DNA of 40,825 nucleotides from an uncultured Gammaproteobacteria bacterium. GTDB taxonomy: Bacteria > Pseudomonadota > Gammaproteobacteria > Pseudomonadales > Litorivicinaceae. The notes under the pieces were generated by a model that made no database searches, had not been told where the DNA came from, and worked only from the letters and a program-made list of their open reading frames with translations. The stretch covers positions 1-40,825 of the forward strand of contig CAJWIY010000013.1 of NCBI GenBank assembly GCA_913042205.1. The letters are read 5' to 3'. Positions 12,197-27,080 of this stretch are shown here, in pieces (the first letter of the stretch is position 1; every line of letters begins with the position of its first letter). The position numbers were made by a program, and so were the translations under genes.

Positions 12197-12772
12197 ATGA
12201 TCGAAATTGGAAAAACGTTAGTAATCAGACGAAATAGATCACTTAGTAAGTTGATATGTACCAAAACGTCACAACCTCAACTAGAGAATTCATTTTGGAA
12301 ACTTACTTTGGTTGACCCAGAATTTTTAAAAGAACTGATAACCGATCACGCAAATCAGCCAAGAAATCAAAGGCATCTAGAACAGTACACTTGTAAATGT
12401 ACCGGTAAAAATCCGCTCTGCGGTGACGAGGTTTCACTTGAGATTGATGTCGATGAAAAATCTGATGTTATAAACGATATTGGCTTTAGGGCTCGCGGAT
12501 GTCCAATTTCCCGGGCATCCGCATCGATAGTCACAGAAACTTGCCTAGGAATGCCCTCAGAAAACGCTAAACTACTAGCCAGACATTTACGCGAGACGTT
12601 AACAGAGCAGTACCCTTCACCGGTGCCGGATCAGCTTTTATCGGCTTGGAGCCAAGTAACCCCCCTCACTGCAATTCAAGTCAACCCAGCAAGGATAAAA
12701 TGCATCACCTTGGCTTGGCATACGCTTTGCCATGCGCTGGACAACCCTGGCTCGAGTGAGACAGTCGACTAG
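12197..12772 (+). CDS. SufU/NifU-N type iron-sulfur scaffold protein
   Basis: A 191-residue IscU/SufU-fold protein. The three scaffold cysteines and the conserved aspartate are all present: C75 and D77 in NPLCGD, C102 in GCPIS, C169 in ARIKCITLAW. The long spacing between the second and third cysteine motifs fits SufU better than IscU. In Bacillus, SufU relays sulfur from SufS, while IscU-type proteins assemble clusters. The first 37 residues are not usual for the family, so the real start may be later, for example near LVDPEF. No sufS, sufB or iscS is nearby. It converges on the last gene of the cox locus and shares the CTAG stop bases. Confidence 0.8.
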   Translation: MIEIGKTLVIRRNRSLSKLICTKTSQPQLENSFWKLTLVDPEFLKELITDHANQPRNQRHLEQYTCKCTGKNPLCGDEVSLEIDVDEKSDVINDIGFRARGCPISRASASIVTETCLGMPSENAKLLARHLRETLTEQYPSPVPDQLLSAWSQVTPLTAIQVNPARIKCITLAWHTLCHALDNPGSSETVD

Positions 12773-13797
12773 GCACTTTCTATCAAACCGTGACTCACGA
12801 CACGGTTCGAATCCATACGAGAATGTTTACCCCTTAAGAGCCCACCCACACCCATCGCTTGGATATCACTAGCGGAAACCTCAAATCCTGCCATCAAGCG
12901 GTCGAGAATCAGGTCCAAACCATTCATTGCGGGTGACCGAGAACAGCCGGGTAACCCTATCACTTTTATTTGACCTACCTCTCCAAGAAGAAGCAAATTC
13001 CCAGGATCTACGGGCATGCCGAAATAGATCACGGTGCCTCCCGCTTCCTCTATAGCAGTTGGAATCACATCGTGGCGATCGCAGATTGCAGATGCTCCGA
13101 GGATCATCAGCACATCCAGCGCGTCTTTGGTTGCCCTAGAAATAGCGCTCTCAAGCCCAACAAGATCATGGGTCGACCGATAATCGAAAAGTTTATCAAT
13201 GCCATAAGCCCTCAAACGAGACTCCTGAACTGCCAGAGCTTTTTTTTGAATTTTTGATGTAATCGTGTCGTTCGAGGTTTGAATCAGTCCTATTTTCAGA
13301 TGCGATTGCCACGACCTGACTGTTAAATTAATCTTTTGTAGGACTAGTTCAACAACAGACACCAGAGATTCGGACACATAGAACGGGATGATTTTCAATG
13401 TCGCGATCTGATCGCCCGCTATCACGGATGCGCCTGGCAGACAAGTCGCGAGGGTTATTTCCTCCGACAGGGCATTGAACGCATCAATATCAGCCCGCTC
13501 AAAGTCCACGAAACCTGAATGTGAGGCATAAACATTGTATCGACCACCGTTGGCCTTTTTAAACACGCATCCGGCCCACGTTAGTGAGTGAATCAACCTC
13601 TCAGAAACCAAATCCTCAGCAATTTCGTTAGGATCAGGCACCACCACGTCAACCGTGGCCACGCCAGCATCGACCAGTGAGGCTATGTGAGATTCCTTTA
13701 GAACTGTTGCCTTGGCAACGCGACCTCTAGCACCTAGTTGTGAATGTGCGAGCTGCAGGCCGGTCGCCTTATCAACCTCTACCCGCAGCAACCTCAC
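12769..13797 (-). CDS. Molybdopterin-binding domain protein of the cox locus
   Basis: A 342-residue protein with a MoaB/Mog/MoeA-like molybdopterin-binding domain in its C-terminal half: a nucleotide-fold start VRSWQSHLKIGLIQTSND, a central DVLMILGASAICDRHDVIP, and GTVIYFGMPVDPGNLLLLG. The final part (IGLPGCSRSPAMNGLDLIL) is typical of proteins accompanying molybdenum hydroxylase clusters. The N-terminal 170 residues hold the KATGLQLAHSQ type start seen in such proteins. It probably handles molybdopterin or its cytosine dinucleotide form during CO dehydrogenase maturation. The GTG start overlaps the previous gene by four bases (GTGA), so the two are translationally coupled. It is the last gene of the operon. 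Confidence 0.8.
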   Translation of the reverse strand: MRLLRVEVDKATGLQLAHSQLGARGRVAKATVLKESHIASLVDAGVATVDVVVPDPNEIAEDLVSERLIHSLTWAGCVFKKANGGRYNVYASHSGFVDFERADIDAFNALSEEITLATCLPGASVIAGDQIATLKIIPFYVSESLVSVVELVLQKINLTVRSWQSHLKIGLIQTSNDTITSKIQKKALAVQESRLRAYGIDKLFDYRSTHDLVGLESAISRATKDALDVLMILGASAICDRHDVIPTAIEEAGGTVIYFGMPVDPGNLLLLGEVGQIKVIGLPGCSRSPAMNGLDLILDRLMAGFEVSASDIQAMGVGGLLRGKHSRMDSNRVVSHGLIESA

Positions 13798-14795
13798 GTC
13801 TTACCCCGAGAAACCTGAATTAATTGGGCAACAATAGAAACGGCAATCTCGGCGGGTCCCTTAGCACCGATAGAGAGGCCAATCGGTGTTTTCAACGTAT
13901 CGATCACTTCGCTTGTGAGCCCATCCGCAAGTAGCCTTTCTCTGCGAGCTTTAGCGGATTTGGTTCCGCCAAGCGCCCCTACATAAAATGCACTTGATTT
14001 AAGGCCCATGGATATTGCCTTGTCATCAAACTTTGGGTCATGTGTTAATGCGACAATTGCGGTGTCCTTATCGATGCCAATTTCGGTTAGTGCATCCTCG
14101 GGCCACGCACTTACAATTTTTGTATTGGGAAAGCGGTCGGGGTTAGCCCACACAGTTCTCGGATCTACTATGATGGTCTCAAAGTCCAGCGAGTCCAAAC
14201 TCTCGACCAATGCCTGTGCTATGTGCACCCCCCCAATGATGATGACTCTTTTTTGTGCGCTGAATGTTTGGAAAAAAACCTCACCTGATTGATTAAACCC
14301 AGTCTCCGCACCATAGTCTGAATCACGAGCAGTTAACCATCTTTTGTCCGCAACGGAGTTAACACTCTCACGGCCAAGGTTGAGAACCCTGACAAGCGTC
14401 GATTGTTCTCGTTTCTCTATTCTGTCAAATGCTTGCGATACCCAATGTCCATGGTCACAGGTGGATGGCTCAATCAATATTTGTATCTGTCCGCCGCACG
14501 CTAAACCTATGGTGATTACATCCTCATCCGAAACACCAAACTCAATAAGACTCGAGCATTTGGTCTCAATCGCATGTTGAGCGGCGACTACAACGGCGTT
14601 TTCTACGCAACCCCCTGACACAGAACCATAGAACTCTCCAGAGTGTTTCACCACCATGAACGAACCAATATCCCTTGGTGCCGAACCCCAAGTTGACAAT
14701 ACGGTCGCGGTCGCAAAATCAACGGCATTTTTTGTCCATCGATTTGCAATCTGCAACAGGTCTCTGTCGCGGAAACTCATTATCCTGTCTCTCAT
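13794..14795 (-). CDS. XdhC/CoxI family molybdenum-enzyme maturation factor
   Basis: A 333-residue XdhC-like protein. Such proteins carry or protect the molybdenum cofactor and help its sulfuration before insertion into molybdenum hydroxylases. The N-terminal CoxI domain includes STWGSAPRDIGSFMVV near residues 34-49, GSVSGGCVENAVV near 57-69 and IGLACGGQIQILIEP near 95-109. The C-terminal Rossmann-like XdhC domain starts at RVIIIGGVHIAQAL near 184 and includes DPKFDDKAI and YVGALGGTKSAKARRERL. The protein is full length and carries the conserved cysteines of both CoxI motifs. The start overlaps the upstream oxygenase gene (ATGA). A second, shorter XdhC protein lies earlier in the operon. Confidence 0.88.
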   Translation of the reverse strand: MRDRIMSFRDRDLLQIANRWTKNAVDFATATVLSTWGSAPRDIGSFMVVKHSGEFYGSVSGGCVENAVVVAAQHAIETKCSSLIEFGVSDEDVITIGLACGGQIQILIEPSTCDHGHWVSQAFDRIEKREQSTLVRVLNLGRESVNSVADKRWLTARDSDYGAETGFNQSGEVFFQTFSAQKRVIIIGGVHIAQALVESLDSLDFETIIVDPRTVWANPDRFPNTKIVSAWPEDALTEIGIDKDTAIVALTHDPKFDDKAISMGLKSSAFYVGALGGTKSAKARRERLLADGLTSEVIDTLKTPIGLSIGAKGPAEIAVSIVAQLIQVSRGKT

Positions 14796-15475
14796 GATGA
14801 AGCGTATTCGGAGAGAGCATTACTCTGACCAATACGGCCAACTCCTGCGTTGAATGAGATGATCACCCGGTCGCGATCGCCCTGATAGGGCATAGCTTGA
14901 TGCGGTAACCATGATGGGAAAATGATCAAACGACCGGGTATTGGATCAAAATCTGCAGTGGCGTTCTGCAGATAAGCATTTCCAAAATCAGAATAAGCTC
15001 CTCCAAGTCTTTCAAAAAGCGGACTGTAGAATCTTGTAACCCCATTCATAGCTCCATAGCTTGGGTGCGAAATCCGCCGCTCGTGCTCATCAACGTCCAC
15101 AATGTAAACGGCAGACCACGAGCAGTTTCCATGGGTATGGATATCATGGTGCACGCCGCCGTTCGAAATCTGAAACCAAATACCCTTGATTTCAATTTGT
15201 AAATCAACCGATCCTTCAGGCCACACCCCAACATTCGCAAGCTTGGCAGAATCTCTAATAGCCGCCACACCAAAATTTACAAAGTCAGTCCACTCGTTGA
15301 GTTTCACACGATTCAGAAGATCATCTCGGCTGGCATAGAAAGGATTATTTTGGCTGTCATAGTCATCTGTCACCCGCATCGTATGAAAAATTTTTCTAAA
15401 GAGAGGGTTTACATTTGACGCCATCTCGTAATGATGGATACCTATATGGGTTGGCCAGACTTCAAGCGACTCCAC
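14792..15475 (-). CDS. 2-oxoglutarate/Fe(II) oxygenase-like protein in the cox operon
   Basis: A protein of about 227 residues resembling the TIGR02466-type family of putative 2-oxoglutarate/Fe(II) oxygenases. The metal motif is seen in HHDIHTHGNCSWS, with an aspartate following in AVYIVDVD. The downstream histidine sits in WLPHQAMPYQGDRDRVIISFN, where the arginines expected to bind 2-oxoglutarate also lie. The GTG at 15475 is preferred because GAGG lies about seven bases upstream; a TTG at 15517 would add 14 residues. It overlaps the mocA-like gene by 14 bases and the XdhC gene by 4, so it is an integral operon member. The target is unknown. It is not one of the classical cox genes. Confidence 0.75.
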   Translation of the reverse strand: MESLEVWPTHIGIHHYEMASNVNPLFRKIFHTMRVTDDYDSQNNPFYASRDDLLNRVKLNEWTDFVNFGVAAIRDSAKLANVGVWPEGSVDLQIEIKGIWFQISNGGVHHDIHTHGNCSWSAVYIVDVDEHERRISHPSYGAMNGVTRFYSPLFERLGGAYSDFGNAYLQNATADFDPIPGRLIIFPSWLPHQAMPYQGDRDRVIISFNAGVGRIGQSNALSEYASS

Positions 15476-18976: not shown

Positions 18977-19573
18977 CTAATTAGCAGGATTTTTTCCGAA
19001 AAGACCCCCAAGCCAGTTTTTAAGTAGCGCCCAGACGATGCCCAGACCGTTGAGTTCTTTGGAAGACTCACCGGTTTGGAGGGCTGTTGCCGAAGAGTCT
19101 GTCAATGTATCCGGCCCATCCAGTGCCCGCGCCTTAGATATGAAGTTATCTACAAACTGGTTCAAGATGACGTCTGATACCTGGACCATCATCCTCCCCC
19201 CAAATTGTGCGAACTTGCCGTTAACTATGACGACAGCTTTTCCGATCAAAGTAGCTTCTCCATTTCCATCATCCTCAATGACAGCCTCGAGCTCCATGGA
19301 TGCTGACGATCCACCCTTATCAGCGCCCTTACCCTTCAGTGTCATGGATCGGTTAGCCTCATCCACCTCCAGAATTGCGACCTCACCACCAAACTGGGCA
19401 GTCGCTGGTCCGACTTTGACTTTTACCGATCCTCTGTACGCGTTATCTCCTAGGCGCTCGCCAAGGCTGGCGCCTGGCATACAAGAGGCTATCTCTTCCA
19501 GATCCGAAAGGATGGCCCACGCCTTGGCGCAGGACACACCCAATTGGTAGCGTTTGTCGAGTTTGACTTCCAC
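18977..19573 (-). CDS. coxG: CoxG, SRPBCC-fold CO dehydrogenase membrane partner
   Basis: A 198-residue protein of the SRPBCC/CoxG family. Residues 1-145 form the lipid-binding fold, with the family start RYQLGVSCAKAWAILSDLEEIASCMPGA and the GSVKVKVGPATAQFGGEV strand pair. A Ser/Thr-rich linker leads to a C-terminal amphipathic tail (GIVWALLKNWLGGLFGK) suited to membrane attachment. CoxG recruits CO dehydrogenase to the membrane, and published work on other bacteria indicates that it delivers quinone to the enzyme. AGGAG precedes the GTG start at 19573. Here it follows coxL directly, before the maturation genes, so it would be made in step with the enzyme. Confidence 0.9.
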   Translation of the reverse strand: MEVKLDKRYQLGVSCAKAWAILSDLEEIASCMPGASLGERLGDNAYRGSVKVKVGPATAQFGGEVAILEVDEANRSMTLKGKGADKGGSSASMELEAVIEDDGNGEATLIGKAVVIVNGKFAQFGGRMMVQVSDVILNQFVDNFISKARALDGPDTLTDSSATALQTGESSKELNGLGIVWALLKNWLGGLFGKNPAN

Positions 19574-19582
19574 TCAGTTCTC

Positions 19583-21994
19583 CTACAATTGAACACCTTC
19601 TTCCTTTAGTTTCTTCCATATCCGATATGACGTATGTGGCATATCGATATGGCTTACACCAAGGTGAGCAAATGCATCGACGACGGCTGAGGTGAAAGTT
19701 GGTATCGATCCCACGTGTGGAGATTCGGCTACACCTTTCGCCCCGATAGGATGGTGGGGAGACGGAGTTACTGTGTAGTCCGTTTCCCATGCCGGAGTCT
19801 CGACCGCAGTCGGTAAGAAATAATCCATCAAAGTATTACCTAATAGATTCCCTTGCTCATCGAACGGCATCTGCTGTCCCATCGCGACAGCGAATCCCTC
19901 GGTTAGTCCGCCGTGAATCTGGCCATCGATGATCATCGGATTGATTCGGGTACCGCAATCATCCAACGCATAGAAACGACGAATGGATGACTCGCCTGTC
20001 CCCTTATCGATGTCGACAACACACAGATAAATACCAAACGGGTAGGTGAAATTCGGTGGATCATAATAATGTACCGCTTCAAGACCCGGCTCTAAACCCT
20101 CTGGCGGCTGCTGGTATGCCGCGAAAGCGATGTCTGCCATCGTTTTAAATTGGTCCTCATTACCGCGAACTTTAAACCGATCGATCTCCCAATCGAGGTC
20201 AGACTCAGAAACCTCAAGAAGATGCGCGGCGATCTTTTTGGCCTTCGCATGGATTTTCCTCGCAGCCATCGCAATGGCTGCACCAGCTACTGGAGTCGAC
20301 CGTGACCCGTAGGTCCCCAGACCATAGGGAGCGGTGGACGTATCACCCTCCTCGATCTGAATGACCTCGCTTGGGATGCCCAGCTCACTCGCAATTATTT
20401 GTGCGTATGTCGTCTGGTGTCCCTGTCCTTGGGTGATAGTGCCCATACGAGCGATCGCGCTACCAGTTGGGTGTATCCTTATTTCACAGGAATCAAACAT
20501 CCCAACCCCTAGGATATCGCACATTTTTGTTGGACCAGCGCCGACCACCTCGGTAAAGGTCACAAGACCAATACCCATCAGCGTTGGACTATTGGGATCA
20601 TTCCGTTTTTCTTGTTGCTCTGCCCTCAAGGCTTTGTAATCCACGGCGTCGAGAACTTTCTCAAGGGCGGTGTGGTAATCGCCTGAGTCATACTCGAACC
20701 CGAACGGACTGGTATACGGGAACTGGTCCTTACGGATAAGGTTTTTCCGACGTATCTCAGCTTTGTCGATGTCAAGCTTCTGCGCGAGCACGTCAACCAT
20801 TCGCTCGATCAGGTAGACAGCCTCAGTCACACGGAAAGAACAACGATAGGCCACTCCACCGGGTGCCTTATTGGTATACACGCCCTTCACACTGCAGTGC
20901 GCGGCCGAAATATCATAACTTCCTGAGCAAATATGGAAGAGACCTGCGGGGAATTTTGTTGGGTCCGCACACGCGTCAAACGCGCCGTGATCGGCGACAA
21001 CGTCAACCTTTAAACCCAAAATTTTTCCATCTTCCGTCGCGGCGAGGTGTCCATCCATATGATAATCCCGGGCAAATGCGGTGCTGGAAATATTTTCGAT
21101 TCTGTCCTCCGACCACTTCACCGGCTTGCCCAGAACAATTGAGGAGACGATCGCACACACATATCCCGGGTAGACACCAACCTTGTTTCCGAAGCCCCCA
21201 CCAATATCTGGGCTAATGATACGGACCTTTGACTCGGGGACGCCGCTCAGCATTGAGACCACAGTCCTGACAACGTGCGGTGCCTGAGAGGTCATCCAGG
21301 TAGTTAACTCACCCTTGATCGGATCGAAACTAGCCACACAGCCACAGGTCTCGAGTGGACATGGATGCACTCGTGGATAGAGCATGTGTTGTGAGACTGT
21401 TACAGGGGCCGATGCGAATACATCATCGGCGGCTGACTTATCCCCCGCCTCCCAGGTAAAGATATGGTTATGATGCTCCCGCGGGCCGTGGGCGCCCTCA
21501 TTTTTGCCGGCAAGATCCTCTCTTAGAACAGGCGCATCGGCCTCGAGGGCAGCGTAAGGGTCCATCACCACAGGCAGTTCTTCATATTCAACTTCAACTG
21601 CCTCTACACCATCGGCTGCAATATAACGGTCATCGGCGATCACAATCGCAACTTCCTGCATTTGAAAATGGACCTTTTCGTCCGCCAAGACTGCCGCAAC
21701 GTCGCCGGCTAAGGTTGGCATCCAATGGAGATTGAGAGGTTTTAAGTCATCGGCCGTAAGTACAGCATGCACGCCCGGAATCGCAAGTGCATCGTCTTTT
21801 TTTATGTTTTTGATTCGACCATGAGCTATCGGTGACCGGACAATATCCATGTGCAGCATGCCAGGTAATTTGATGTCATCGCAGTACTGACCTTTCCCTT
21901 GTATGAAGCGCGCGTCTTCTTTACGAAGTCGCGAGTCTCCCATACCCTGCAGTTCGGCCTGTCGCTCTTCAGGTGTCTTTACTGGTGCGTTCAT
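19583..21994 (-). CDS. coxL: Form I aerobic carbon monoxide dehydrogenase large subunit
   Basis: The catalytic Mo-Cu subunit, 803 residues against about 809 in Oligotropha. It oxidises CO with water to CO2, two protons and two electrons. The active-site loop reads AYRCSFR, with C385 as the expected S-Cu ligand; this is the form I signature, unlike the AYRGAGR of form II. The glutamine near the molybdenum is Q237 (TSQAPH), and the catalytic base is E757 in GVAESP. The cofactor segment GQGHQTTYAQ is intact. GGGAG lies six bases before the ATG. The gene is 13 bases after coxS and 9 before coxG. All key residues are present, so activity on CO is strongly expected. Confidence 0.97.
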   Translation of the reverse strand: MNAPVKTPEERQAELQGMGDSRLRKEDARFIQGKGQYCDDIKLPGMLHMDIVRSPIAHGRIKNIKKDDALAIPGVHAVLTADDLKPLNLHWMPTLAGDVAAVLADEKVHFQMQEVAIVIADDRYIAADGVEAVEVEYEELPVVMDPYAALEADAPVLREDLAGKNEGAHGPREHHNHIFTWEAGDKSAADDVFASAPVTVSQHMLYPRVHPCPLETCGCVASFDPIKGELTTWMTSQAPHVVRTVVSMLSGVPESKVRIISPDIGGGFGNKVGVYPGYVCAIVSSIVLGKPVKWSEDRIENISSTAFARDYHMDGHLAATEDGKILGLKVDVVADHGAFDACADPTKFPAGLFHICSGSYDISAAHCSVKGVYTNKAPGGVAYRCSFRVTEAVYLIERMVDVLAQKLDIDKAEIRRKNLIRKDQFPYTSPFGFEYDSGDYHTALEKVLDAVDYKALRAEQQEKRNDPNSPTLMGIGLVTFTEVVGAGPTKMCDILGVGMFDSCEIRIHPTGSAIARMGTITQGQGHQTTYAQIIASELGIPSEVIQIEEGDTSTAPYGLGTYGSRSTPVAGAAIAMAARKIHAKAKKIAAHLLEVSESDLDWEIDRFKVRGNEDQFKTMADIAFAAYQQPPEGLEPGLEAVHYYDPPNFTYPFGIYLCVVDIDKGTGESSIRRFYALDDCGTRINPMIIDGQIHGGLTEGFAVAMGQQMPFDEQGNLLGNTLMDYFLPTAVETPAWETDYTVTPSPHHPIGAKGVAESPHVGSIPTFTSAVVDAFAHLGVSHIDMPHTSYRIWKKLKEEGVQL

Positions 21995-22007: not shown

Positions 22008-22499
22008 TCAGGCCGAGGCCGTTTCCTTATCTTGCAATTTCGTCGCCGCAGATTGCACGGCTTTTATAATGTTCTGGTACCCGGTACAGCGACATAGATT
22101 GCCGCTGATTCCGGTACGAATCTCATCTTCAGTTGGGTTGGGATTCTCCTGGAGGAATCGATAGGAGCGCATCAACATTCCGGGTGTGCAGTAGCCGCAT
22201 TGTAGTCCATGCTCCTCATAAAACGCCTCTTGCACAGGGTGCAAGACGCCATTTTCTGCGAGTCCCTCTACCGTCTTCACATCCGAACCGTCGCATTGGA
22301 CCGCCAAGTGCGTGCAAGCTTTGACGCTCTCGCCATCAATATCGACCGTGCAGGCCCCGCATTGACTGGTCTCGCAACCAATGTGTGCGCCCGTCAGATT
22401 CATTTGCTCTCTGAGGAAATGAACCAACAGAGTCCTACTATCTACCAATTGCTCGACCTGCTGACCATTGAGTGTCATCTTTACTATTTGCTTTGCCAT
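22008..22499 (-). CDS. coxS: CO dehydrogenase small iron-sulfur subunit
   Basis: A subunit of 163 residues carrying two [2Fe-2S] clusters that pass electrons from the molybdenum centre to FAD. The plant-ferredoxin-type cluster is bound by C42, C47, C50 and C62 ([10 protein letters not shown] and KAC). The second is bound by C101, C104, C136 and C138 (QCGYCTPG and NLCRCTGYQ). All eight ligands are present and the length matches the family. The upstream GGATG is only a moderate ribosome site. The gene lies between coxM and coxL, the usual form I order M-S-L. Confidence 0.96.
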
Positions 22500-22518: not shown

Positions 22519-23382
22519 TTAGTTTGCTCTAGAGAGCGCCTCCGCGATGGCACGCTGGACCATCTGTCCCGCCATCGCTGTTTTATATTCAACATCACCC
22601 CGTAGATCCTCTGCAGGATCACAAATTGCCATCGCTTTCTCGGCCGCGTGTTTTATCAACTCATCAGTCACTGCCTGACCCGAAAGGACCGCCTCCGCGT
22701 CATGAGCACGAATCGCCGTCGGTCCCAGATTGGTTAGTGTGATCCGGATGTGGGAAACTTTGCCGCCTGACAGAGCAACGACAACTGCACATGCGGCTGT
22801 GGCCCAATCACCTGTTTTGCGCTTCAGTTTTCGATACGAATAACCTGCCCCGTCTGGGAAAGCCTTGACCGTGATGGCGGTCAATATGTCGTCATCATTC
22901 AGCGCGGTCCAGTAGGTTCCAAGGAAAAATTCTGACGCAGGGATCTGACGTGCGCCGGCTGGCCCCACGACAGTCATCACCGCGTCACAGGCGAGTGCAA
23001 GGGCCGGATGATCGTTCGCAGGATCTCCATGAGCAATATCGCCGCCGATGGTGCCGCGATTCCTGACCTGTGGGTCGGCAATCAATTTCGCTGCCTCAGG
23101 AAGGAGGGGAACTTTCTCGTTCAAGATTGGGTCTGCTATAACGGCGTTTTCAGTCGTCATCGCTCCAATAGTAATATTATCACCGACGACTGATACGCCG
23201 CTCAGTTCTGATATTCTGTTGATGTCGACAAGATGCTCGGGCATCGCGAAACGGAGCTTCATCATTGGTAGCAAGCTATGGCCACCCGCCAGTATTTTTG
23301 CTTCAGACCCGAGGCTCGACAACAAGCCAACAGCTTCCTCAACTGTGGACGGGCGATGATACTCAAAGCTAGGAGGGATCAT
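22519..23382 (-). CDS. coxM: CO dehydrogenase medium FAD-binding subunit
   Basis: The flavoprotein subunit, 287 residues, which receives electrons from CoxS and hands them to the respiratory chain. FAD-binding motifs are AGGHS at residues 32-36, followed by LLPMMKLR, and TIGGD at 111-115, followed by IAHGDPAND; both match known CoxM proteins. The C-terminal domain from about residue 180 is the usual CO-dehydrogenase flavoprotein C-domain. The ATG at 23382 has GGAG seven bases upstream, and that GGAG sits in one arm of an inverted repeat. This is the first gene of the operon. Its promoter should lie between 23383 and about 23560. Confidence 0.96.
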   Translation of the reverse strand: MIPPSFEYHRPSTVEEAVGLLSSLGSEAKILAGGHSLLPMMKLRFAMPEHLVDINRISELSGVSVVGDNITIGAMTTENAVIADPILNEKVPLLPEAAKLIADPQVRNRGTIGGDIAHGDPANDHPALALACDAVMTVVGPAGARQIPASEFFLGTYWTALNDDDILTAITVKAFPDGAGYSYRKLKRKTGDWATAACAVVVALSGGKVSHIRITLTNLGPTAIRAHDAEAVLSGQAVTDELIKHAAEKAMAICDPAEDLRGDVEYKTAMAGQMVQRAIAEALSRAN

Positions 23383-23797: not shown

Positions 23798-24943
23798 TTA
23801 GGACTCAATGCTCCTAAACTCAGAGAAAATATTCCGATCAATCCCTAGATGGTGCCGTAACGCAAACTCGAAAACTGATCGGTAATCTGTCTTAAAGATC
23901 AGGTCTCCCTTTTTCAATTTTTCGAGATCAGCCATACCACCATGGATACCACCTCTGACGTGACCACTGATATAAAAGTGTGGAGCAGCGGTACCATGAT
24001 CTGTGCCACGCGCACCATTTTCCGCCACCCGTCTACCAAACTCAGAGTAGGTGATGATCGAAACTCTATCCCACACTCCGATTCGTTTGAGTGCGGCGAC
24101 TGTGTCTGTCAGGGCCTCGTCAAGCTCACGAAGCAAATTACGGTGCTGATTTCTCTGATTCACGTGGGTATCAAAACTACCGAGCGTTACCTTGAAGACG
24201 GGTATCTGAACGTTTGCACTGATCAAATTGCAAACGGTCCTCAATTGTCCCCCCAATTGTCTCCCACGAACTCTAAACATCGTCTTGTCGGCTTGGAGTT
24301 TCGATGCAATAGACGTGGCCCGCCTGTTATGGTTTTTCTGGGACTGCTGAATCGACGCGAGAAGCGCATTTCTTGCGGATACAGAAGACTTGCCTATCGA
24401 GGTACCTTGGTCCTTAGACGACAGGATCTTACCGATTGAATGCGGCCCCAGATAATGCTTACCGCCAGCAAAAATATTACCTGTTCCCCCAAGATAGATG
24501 CCGGGCGCATCGAAACGATCGACACCCAATCTCGCTAGCTGCTTAACCAACCAACCCTCTCTGCCATTTGCTCGCCCATCGCCACCGCGCTCCCAAATCT
24601 CGATAGAACGAAAGTGGCTTTGTATCTGTTCGGGATACCCAACGTTTTGAAAGATCCGCAAATCACCGGACTCATATAAGGATCTGATTCCCACCAAAGA
24701 GGGATGAAGACCCTGATCGTTATCCAACGAGAGGACGTCCTTTTTTGGGATGCCAATTTCCGGACGCAAAGAGTAGTAACGATCGTTTTTAAATGGTACG
24801 ACGGTATTCAACCCATCATTGGCGCCTGTAAGCTCGACCAAGATAATGTGACCATCGATGTCACCAGAGGCGCCACAGATTCTGGGTGCCGAGAGTGCAG
24901 CAGACGCAAGAAATGCGTTTAAGCAGAATTCTCTCCTGTCCAT
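23798..24943 (-). CDS. DUF1501 family exported protein
   Basis: A DUF1501 protein of 381 residues, related by fold to the sulfatase / alkaline phosphatase superfamily. The N-terminus DRREFCLNAFLASAALSA resembles a twin-arginine signal, though the consensus is weak. Family features are ILVELTGANDGLNTVVPF near residues 33-50, DNDQGLHPSL near 73-82, FQNVGYPEQIQSHF near 98-111, and a late segment with FGRRVAENGARGTDHGTAAPHF. It lies 10 bases after a DUF1800 lipoprotein gene. This DUF1800-DUF1501 pairing is common in proteobacteria and planctomycetes, with unknown function at the cell surface or periplasm. Confidence 0.88.
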   Translation of the reverse strand: MDRREFCLNAFLASAALSAPRICGASGDIDGHIILVELTGANDGLNTVVPFKNDRYYSLRPEIGIPKKDVLSLDNDQGLHPSLVGIRSLYESGDLRIFQNVGYPEQIQSHFRSIEIWERGGDGRANGREGWLVKQLARLGVDRFDAPGIYLGGTGNIFAGGKHYLGPHSIGKILSSKDQGTSIGKSSVSARNALLASIQQSQKNHNRRATSIASKLQADKTMFRVRGRQLGGQLRTVCNLISANVQIPVFKVTLGSFDTHVNQRNQHRNLLRELDEALTDTVAALKRIGVWDRVSIITYSEFGRRVAENGARGTDHGTAAPHFYISGHVRGGIHGGMADLEKLKKGDLIFKTDYRSVFEFALRHHLGIDRNIFSEFRSIES

Positions 24944-24953
24944 GCCAAAGCCC

Positions 24954-27080
24954 TCACTTCAATTGAAAACTGTCTGATAAAACTAATCGCTCCAACGCGT
25001 TGGCTCCCGATCCCAGTAACCCCTCGGGCAACTGTGCAGAGATCCAGTCGTCGGTTCTGTTAGCGCTGACCGAGAGCTGCTGGGAAATACCTTCAATAGG
25101 CCGAGACCACGAACTGTGGGCCCTGCTTGATAGCACGTGGCCGCAAAGTCCACCCTGTTTGCGATCCTGCTTGAGAAGTATAACAGGTGGCAACACCTTC
25201 CCGTCCTCATCTTTTAAGTCATTAAACGGGGCCCTAGATCGCTGACTCGTCAGCCAGTCCATCCACGCACTCTCATTCTCCGGCCCTCCTCTGTGGAATA
25301 CGCGCCCGTTACCCACCGAATCTGGAAGTAGGTGCACCAACTGGAACAACCGTCTGAGGAGCAACCGATCCTGCCCAGATATCGATGCCCACCGCTCCTT
25401 CAACCAGGGTTTGGGCCCGCCACTCTGGAAAGGCGACACTTCAAAGCCTCTGACTCCGCGCCAATCAGAATCATAGCCCTTTTTAAAGTTCGAAATACAG
25501 GCTGGGCTACAGCTATTTTCATAGAACGAAACGTTCGCGTAGTTATGCTTTTTATTTAGCCCTATCCGTATGTTCATCCCATCCCAGCTCTTATCACCGA
25601 GGTGTACCCCCACAAGATTAAGGGTCATTTTTGGGTGCCGTCTCTTCTTCATATCTTCTGAGACTGAATCGAAGACCGCCGCCTCGATAATAAGTTGTTC
25701 AGGATGCGCACGTGTCTTAACTCGATGCAGTTTCCTACGATATTTTGCCAACCGTTTCCGTTCATCGGCCTGGAAGCCCAAGAAAAGCTGTCTTTTGTTC
25801 TCAAAATCAAAATCAAAGTCATCGTCGAGTAACAAACGACTTAAAACCTCTTTGCGTGTATTGAAGAGACCACCATCCACCCAGGACATCCCGCCCTCAT
25901 AACCGGCGACATTCGGTGGATCAAGCAGTGAGTAATTCATCCTCGTAAAGAGCGCGCTGAAGTCTCTCGTGTCGTATTCCGACGTGTTGTCATAGCCTAG
26001 TGTCCGGAGAGAACCTAGGATGATGTCGACGGGATCTTTAATCAAACCCAAACGATTCTCTTCCGCCCAGAAATCTGGCGTCGATAGAGTCCCGCGCAGC
26101 AGATCTGTTATCTCGAAATTAGATTTAAAATACCTAGCAGCTATTTTCTCCACCGTTTCTTCACTGGGGACATTTAAACTGATGTACTCACGGTAAAACT
26201 TTTTTGCCAAGAAACGTGCGTGGGCTGGTTGCTGCAACACGAGGTCCACCGCCTCGATAGGCCTCTTGATTTCTCGCCCAAGAACCAGTCTGTTGAGCGA
26301 AGATTTCGCCGATCTGAATTGCTGATATTTTTGCGAAATTGGATTGACAGATTCTCCCGCCAACACATAGGCAAGGTTTCTGATGTCTTGTTCCGTGTAG
26401 TTTCCCTCACCAAGAGTAAACAACTCTAGGTACTCCCTCGCCAGGTTCTCGTTTATGTTCGCTCGCGTATTCAGATCATTGTTTAGATAAACAAGAACCG
26501 CCGGGTCCTGCAAAACCGCGGCAAGAAAGTCGCGCATGTTCCCAACAGAATGCTTTCTAATAACCTGATGATGTTGTGCGTACGTTTCAGCGGATTGATA
26601 GGTCTTATAGTCACTAACAAAGATGTTGCTAAAAAGAAGTACCAACCGTTCGTGCGCAGGTGCCTCCGAGGTCAGAATGTTATTCATCCATCGGGTCTCT
26701 ACGTCACCAATACGCACCTGCGACGACAATCGATGACAATATCGCCAGGAGTTATCCAAAAAAGTTATGTTCGGATGGCTCAACCAAGCAGGTAACTCCC
26801 CGAATATTCGACGATCTGAGGCAAGGTCTTCAAGGATCATTTCAATGGCCTCGGCGCGCGTCTTACCGATAAGTCGCTCGACTCGGTATTTTGGTGAACC
26901 GATGCCCACCCGGCGCTCTAAATGAATCGCGTCTGCAGTATCCATGACCACCGACAGATGGCTGTCGTCTCCCGTCTGGACTACGCTAAAAACCTCTGCC
27001 GCCGGACTCACAGGTTTTGTTGACTGTTGGCACCCAGAGAGCATCACAATCACAGAGATACATAAGCCTAATTTATGCAT
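24954..27080 (-). CDS. DUF1800 family lipoprotein
   Basis: A predicted lipoprotein of 708 residues. The signal peptide ends in the lipobox LSGC, giving C17 as the lipid-bearing residue. The DUF1800 core is seen in RLVLLFSNIFVSD, VGNMRDFLAAVLQDPAVLVYLN and NENLAREYLELFTLGEGNYTEQDI, within about residues 60-420. The last 280 residues go beyond the usual core and include a stretch (MTLNLVGVHLGDKSWDGM) that looks like a beta-sandwich strand set. That makes it longer than many family members of roughly 450-600 residues. Biochemical role unknown; cotranscribed with the DUF1501 partner. Confidence 0.87.
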   Translation of the reverse strand: MHKLGLCISVIVMLSGCQQSTKPVSPAAEVFSVVQTGDDSHLSVVMDTADAIHLERRVGIGSPKYRVERLIGKTRAEAIEMILEDLASDRRIFGELPAWLSHPNITFLDNSWRYCHRLSSQVRIGDVETRWMNNILTSEAPAHERLVLLFSNIFVSDYKTYQSAETYAQHHQVIRKHSVGNMRDFLAAVLQDPAVLVYLNNDLNTRANINENLAREYLELFTLGEGNYTEQDIRNLAYVLAGESVNPISQKYQQFRSAKSSLNRLVLGREIKRPIEAVDLVLQQPAHARFLAKKFYREYISLNVPSEETVEKIAARYFKSNFEITDLLRGTLSTPDFWAEENRLGLIKDPVDIILGSLRTLGYDNTSEYDTRDFSALFTRMNYSLLDPPNVAGYEGGMSWVDGGLFNTRKEVLSRLLLDDDFDFDFENKRQLFLGFQADERKRLAKYRRKLHRVKTRAHPEQLIIEAAVFDSVSEDMKKRRHPKMTLNLVGVHLGDKSWDGMNIRIGLNKKHNYANVSFYENSCSPACISNFKKGYDSDWRGVRGFEVSPFQSGGPKPWLKERWASISGQDRLLLRRLFQLVHLLPDSVGNGRVFHRGGPENESAWMDWLTSQRSRAPFNDLKDEDGKVLPPVILLKQDRKQGGLCGHVLSSRAHSSWSRPIEGISQQLSVSANRTDDWISAQLPEGLLGSGANALERLVLSDSFQLK

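Follow-up and report, generated by a model that had tools for sequence, protein, structure and literature searches.

The large subunit of carbon monoxide (CO) dehydrogenase from Hydrogenophaga pseudoflava is reported to carry 4-hydroxyarginine at its active site (PMC11603075), directly before the catalytically essential Cys-385 (PMC3750175, PMC4938201). All three articles cite Hanzelmann 2000 for this residue, and their passages on it name no responsible enzyme. The corresponding passages of PMC3750175 (2013) and PMC4938201 (2016) list very few hydroxyarginine proteins, with no second CO dehydrogenase among them. Elsewhere, the bacterial oxygenase YcfD hydroxylates one arginine of one protein, ribosomal L16 (PMC3750175), and NDUFAF5 hydroxylates an arginine of the complex I protein NDUFS7 while the complex is being assembled, at a metal-enzyme site that the authors liken to the CO dehydrogenase loop (PMC4938201). 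Here we analysed a stretch of 40,825 nucleotides from an uncultured gammaproteobacterium of the Litorivicinaceae (contig CAJWIY010000013.1 of assembly GCA_913042205.1; hereafter the window), in which the gene for a putative Fe(II)/2-oxoglutarate oxygenase lies inside a form I CO dehydrogenase (cox) cluster. This gene is a named candidate for the enzyme behind the hydroxyarginine reported with reference to the 2000 structure paper. The gene and its proposed target are as follows.

14792–15475, minus strand: oxygenase of the TIGR02466/PF13759 family, proposed CoxL arginine hydroxylase; GTG start, 227 amino acids, with Pfam and NCBIfam matches
19583–21994, minus strand: CoxL, form I (AYRCSFR), the proposed substrate; best PDB match 1ffu/1ffv
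20840–20845, minus strand: codons of CoxL Arg384 and Cys385, counted from the CoxL start at 21994

The proposed activity is like that of YcfD in being directed at one arginine of one protein, and like that of NDUFAF5 in modifying a metal-enzyme site during assembly. It differs from YcfD in its product, which would be hydroxylated at C4 rather than C3, and from NDUFAF5 in fold, the latter being a methyltransferase-type protein dependent on S-adenosylmethionine. YcfD, an oxygenase of the JmjC type, did not appear among the fold or sequence matches listed, which excludes nothing. As for gene content, the classical cox cluster on plasmid pHCG3 of Oligotropha carboxidovorans OM5 shares coxM, coxS, coxL, coxD, coxE, coxF, coxG and the XdhC genes with the window, but no oxygenase was found there.

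The oxygenase frame runs on the minus strand from a GTG at 15475 to a stop at 14792, and the plus-strand frame over the same interval is interrupted by several stops. Its overlaps are 14 nt with the upstream MocA-like gene and 4 nt with the downstream XdhC gene. The preliminary description of this locus had placed an oxygenase-like gene within the cox operon, overlapping both neighbours, and this was confirmed; it had named no strand, which is minus. The product scored 57.5 bits against Pfam PF13759 (2OG-FeII_Oxy_5; cut-off 27) and 64.9 bits against NCBIfam TIGR02466 (cut-off 62.5), and thus belongs to both families. A chance frame was ruled out by the cox linkage in relatives described below and by conservation within the genus, because nine other genomes keep the frame at 64–88% identity, flanked by cox genes in all nine.

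An AlphaFold model of the protein (mean predicted local distance difference test score 81.4, predicted template modelling score 0.83) showed the double-stranded beta-helix fold of the Fe(II)/2-oxoglutarate oxygenase superfamily. Two uncharacterised proteins, 3bvc (Z 19.8) and 2rg4 (Z 19.3), were its best PDB fold matches, followed among the best Foldseek matches by the Pseudomonas putida prolyl-4-hydroxylase and PHD2 (Z 15.0 each). A profile-based sequence search of the PDB returned only the same two uncharacterised relatives at E < 0.001. They and the cyanophage homologs are putative oxygenases of the same family, with the same fold and the same H-x-H...H...R residues. H113, H115, H192, R203 and W100 were kept in all 67 aligned rows, 42 of them of the non-cox type. 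The three histidines are candidate iron ligands, and R203, from its position on the last strand, is the likely arginine for the 2-oxoglutarate carboxylate. The window oxygenase differs from other members of the family in belonging to a separate cox-linked clade with its own fixed residues: Q102 was present in 25/25 cox-type rows, and D111, which precedes H113, in 25/25 cox-type rows versus 5/42 others, so that it is not family-wide. The P. putida prolyl-4-hydroxylase (4j25; 4iw3 with EF-Tu) and PHD2 share the fold and hydroxylate a protein side chain, but they are only 12–13% identical to the window protein, act on a different substrate and have an H-x-D metal motif in place of H-x-H. We consider the oxygenase likely to be a protein hydroxylase.

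Among 84,980 species genomes scanned, 272 relatives of the oxygenase were found, and the best 80 were analysed. The fetched stretch carried one or more cox or mocA-like genes in 77 of these 80, and coxL in 61. Wherever a MocA-like gene was found, it lay directly upstream of the oxygenase (77/77 loci), at a distance of −14 to 97 nt apart from a single value of 410 derived from a cut alignment. Three loci broke the linkage pattern: L101, whose start is 42 bases away from the end of the contig, and the Solirubrobacterales loci L107 and L116. Gammaproteobacterium HIMB30 and two records titled Litoricola were among the named relatives. Within the genus, 10 of 22 genomes, including that of the window, had a close copy (64–100% identity), and all ten copies adjoin cox genes. 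Of the 22, 19 were screened for CoxL; nine had it, eight of them together with the oxygenase, and in the remaining one, G004 (60% complete), the contig stops inside coxE. Recurrence in other genomes, which the preliminary description had put forward as a check, was thus borne out by the 77 linked relatives and by a distant Deinococcus cox cluster, and these also rule out a purely local linkage. The oxygenase is almost certainly conserved as a component of one form I cox cluster type.

In a phylogenetic tree of the oxygenase (67 chosen rows), the cox-type proteins, including Deinococcus and four actinobacterial copies, formed one clade with support of 100/97, separate from the 42 other family members. 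In the CoxL tree (77 rows), Pseudomonadota rows with the oxygenase formed one well-supported group, to which G519 was the sole exception, and Deinococcus stood apart on a long branch.

More distant homologs were also recorded. Same-order homologs L012–L016 (36–44% identity) were rejected as cox components, as no cox gene was found on the stretches examined (about 10 kb on each side of four of them, the fifth lying on a 5.9 kb contig). The window genome (2.02 Mb) encodes one further distant TIGR02466-type protein, L002 (G000:C39:3540–3869), which, together with its same-genus relatives, had no cox linkage and formed a separate clade in the oxygenase tree. Other distant relatives were L033 (4001–4612) and 26 phage records, mostly from cyanophages.

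We compared the presence of the oxygenase with that of CoxL in larger samples; in those of Pseudomonadota, Burkholderiales and Actinomycetota, only the best few candidates per genome were scored. Among 67 Hydrogenophaga genomes, CutL-type CoxL was detected in 13 (E ≤ 1e-200) and the oxygenase in 14 (E ≤ 1e-30). All 13 CoxL-bearing genomes had the oxygenase, nine of them with both genes on one contig, and in the fourteenth oxygenase genome (G141) the gene lies on a 4.7 kb contig together with mocA-like and xdhC genes. Among 399 Burkholderiales genomes, CoxL was found in seven and a family match (E ≤ 1e-5) in 35, with orthologs at E ≤ 1e-100 only in G096, a chosen centre, and G1089; the rest were above 1e-12. 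Both of these genomes have CutL-type CoxL, and strong orthologs were found in none of the 392 CoxL-negative genomes. G1167 and G1099 of this sample probably duplicate G519 and G475, with which they share their coordinates. In an even sample of Pseudomonadota, form I-like CoxL was present in 18/398 genomes, including that of the window, and none of the other 17, G519 among them, yielded an oxygenase ortholog, G259 giving a weak partial match (4.8e-7). Among 72,556 plasmid records, 19 had CoxL (E ≤ 1e-200), two had an oxygenase relative, and one, from Deinococcus sp. AJ005, had both. The gene order in this record was coxG, oxygenase, xdhC, moxR and VWA; its CoxL is distant (56%), and its oxygenase occupies a different place, between coxG and xdhC. 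pHCG3 and the Pseudomonadota and plasmid samples therefore show that not every form I cluster has the oxygenase. The earlier statement that classical cox clusters lack an oxygenase holds for pHCG3 but fails for the whole Hydrogenophaga-type clade. As most sampled form I clusters lack the gene, its product would tune or protect the enzyme rather than be needed for activity as such. The O. carboxidovorans structures have a plain arginine at the CoxL loop.

The window CoxL gave 1652.6 bits with H. pseudoflava CutL (1ffu/1ffv) and 1261.8 bits with O. carboxidovorans CoxL (1n5w) in the PDB, and the CoxL proteins of the oxygenase-bearing clade are likewise of the H. pseudoflava type. It has Arg at position 384 and Cys at 385, in the loop GGVAYRCSFR. 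YRCSFR, and hence Arg384, was present in 59/59 full-length CoxL sequences from oxygenase-bearing loci. The protein-hydroxylase fold, the tie to the hydroxyarginine type of CoxL and the absence of the gene from the pHCG3 cluster together make this oxygenase the most straightforward candidate for the enzyme that forms the hydroxyarginine. In the openly licensed literature we found neither a named CoxL arginine hydroxylase nor mention of an oxygenase gene in cox clusters; in a text search, "oxygenase" and "oxoglutarate" did not occur in PMC13240472, PMC11771112 or PMC6794299.

Actinomycetota were considered separately. CoxL was found in 43 of 296 genomes, with a strong oxygenase match in three (G099, a chosen centre, G642 and G650) and a weak one in G596. 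This co-occurrence was set aside as support, and in particular that in G642 and G650 is not evidence, because the search covered CoxL-positive genomes only and so gives no background rate. The four actinobacterial cox-type copies (L107, 10001–10627; L116, 2154–2780; L267, 9131–9799; L273, 2935–3561) nest among betaproteobacterial ones in the oxygenase tree, which suggests that they may have been transferred as a single gene. In G099, G642 and G650, form I CoxL lies on another contig, and the CoxL of G642 and G650 has arginine in the motif. Among the 30 full-length actinobacterial form I-like CoxL sequences compared, 11 read AYACSFR, the residue next to the copper-site cysteine being alanine instead of arginine (L192, L194, L195, L198, L200, L202, L203, L206, L207, L214 and L216). 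The oxygenase was found in none of the 11 genomes with Ala384, but this is weak evidence, as most Arg384 genomes in the group also lacked it.

On balance, we think it probable that the oxygenase hydroxylates CoxL Arg384 during CO dehydrogenase maturation. It would be a protein hydroxylase devoted to form I maturation, a TIGR02466-branch member of the Fe/2-oxoglutarate oxygenase fold, and would bind apo-CoxL at a stage when the active-site loop GGVAYRCSFR remains accessible. This step might fall between the supply of the molybdopterin cytosine dinucleotide (MCD) cofactor, attributed to the MocA-like gene, and the insertion of cofactor and metal by XdhC and CoxDEF. With O2 and 2-oxoglutarate as cosubstrates, the enzyme would hydroxylate Arg384, which directly precedes the copper-binding Cys385, at C4. 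The preliminary description had suggested a CO dehydrogenase subunit or a maturation factor as the target; hydroxylation of a subunit is the best reading, with CoxL Arg384 as the specific target.

Several observations weigh against this assignment. The protein lacks the canonical H-x-D/E...H iron site: in place of the His-x-Asp...His triad anticipated earlier, the family has H113-x-H115...H192 with R203. 4-Hydroxyarginine in CO dehydrogenase has been reported from one species, H. pseudoflava, which did not turn up among the Hydrogenophaga genomes searched: none of the 13 CoxL-bearing genomes fully matched its CutL, fragments reaching 93–100% at best (L146). No CoxL column separates oxygenase-bearing clusters, Deinococcus included, from the others. 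Form I clusters without the oxygenase are common, so the gene is not essential; among them is that of a close relative of the clade, G519 (L227), whose CoxL is 83% identical to that of the window. The G519 cluster gave no coxF match either, and its sisters in the CoxL tree retain the oxygenase. Finally, the Solirubrobacterales loci L107 and L116 had no cox linkage, none of the four actinobacterial copies adjoins coxL, and a search for CoxL in G100, the genome of one of these copies, found none.

The strongest alternative, although we regard it as rather unlikely, is that the protein is a hydroxylase dedicated to cox but aimed elsewhere: at another residue of CoxL, at CoxM or CoxS, or at a maturation factor such as CoxD, CoxE or XdhC. 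The linkage evidence indicates dedication to cox but points to no residue, and no CoxL column covaries with the oxygenase gene. On the other hand, the sole hydroxylation we found reported for CO dehydrogenase, in the article passages cited above, is that of Arg384 in the oxygenase-carrying clade, and another target would leave this modification without an enzyme. It is less probable still that the oxygenase acts on a small molecule or on MCD, or senses O2 or 2-oxoglutarate to tune maturation. Its fixed place after the MocA-like gene would suit such a role, and the fold search also returned the oxygen sensor PHD2. However, the nearest characterised folds among the best Foldseek matches listed all act on proteins, the cofactor of solved CO dehydrogenases is plain MCD, and clusters without the oxygenase work; sensing, also raised in the preliminary description, gained no support from any analysis.

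Non-enzymatic formation of the H. pseudoflava hydroxyarginine by oxidation at the Cu-Mo site, with the oxygenase unrelated to it, appears very improbable. The arginine does touch a redox-active metal site and the modification rests on one species, but this would leave unexplained both the retention of the gene in cox clusters of the Hydrogenophaga CoxL type and its uptake by the Deinococcus cluster. A passenger gene kept only since the cluster moves as a block is scarcely credible, given the overlapping frames in the window, the conserved catalytic residues and the different place in Deinococcus, even if horizontal transfer of cox clusters is thought likely in a passage of PMC3471820.

If the oxygenase hydroxylates Arg384, a branch of the family without known function would gain a proposed role, and an extra component would be added to the maturation of CO dehydrogenase in Litoricola, Limnohabitans and Hydrogenophaga, which are abundant aquatic bacteria. 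Form I enzymes with the oxygenase, without it, and with alanine replacing the arginine provide a natural comparison set. A wider combination is possible but tentative: the oxygenase would be the first protein-arginine C4-hydroxylase of bacteria, would serve a single metalloenzyme and would modify the arginine by the CO dehydrogenase copper ligand, with a three-histidine iron site replacing the two-histidine-one-carboxylate site; form I enzymes would then split into hydroxylated and unhydroxylated classes, and CO oxidation would depend on 2-oxoglutarate and O2 at maturation.

The window cluster is of form I, with the CoxL motif AYRCSFR and the maturation genes coxDEFG. In minus-strand order it reads coxM, coxS, coxL, coxG, coxD, coxE, coxF/xdhC, mocA-like, oxygenase, a second xdhC and moeA-like. 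The genes other than the oxygenase and coxL are as follows.

22519–23382, minus strand: CoxM-like medium subunit; open frame named by position and sequence
22008–22499, minus strand: CoxS-like small subunit; open frame named by position and sequence
18977–19573, minus strand: CoxG-like protein; PF06240, 58.4 bits
18084–18965, minus strand: CoxD-like AAA ATPase; PF07728, 46.6 bits
16940–18127, minus strand: CoxE-like VWA protein; PF05762, 105.9 bits
16151–16924, minus strand: XdhC/CoxI-family protein in the CoxF position; PF13478, 67.2 bits, and PF02625, 62.4 bits
15462–16151, minus strand: MocA/MobA-like nucleotidyltransferase; PF12804, 91.3 bits, and TIGR03310, 83 bits, under the cut-off of 186.45
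13794–14795, minus strand: XdhC-family protein, second copy; PF13478, 124.5 bits, and PF02625, 73.1 bits
12769–13797, minus strand: MoeA-like protein; weak molybdopterin-binding match PF00994, 20.8 bits, under the cut-off of 26.6

The moeA-like gene also adjoins the cluster in same-genus loci. Beside this end of the cluster, on the plus strand, lies an open frame at 12197–12772 whose product resembles a NifU/SufU-type scaffold protein. Upstream of coxM, two large minus-strand frames at 23798–27080 resemble a DUF1501/DUF1800 pair.
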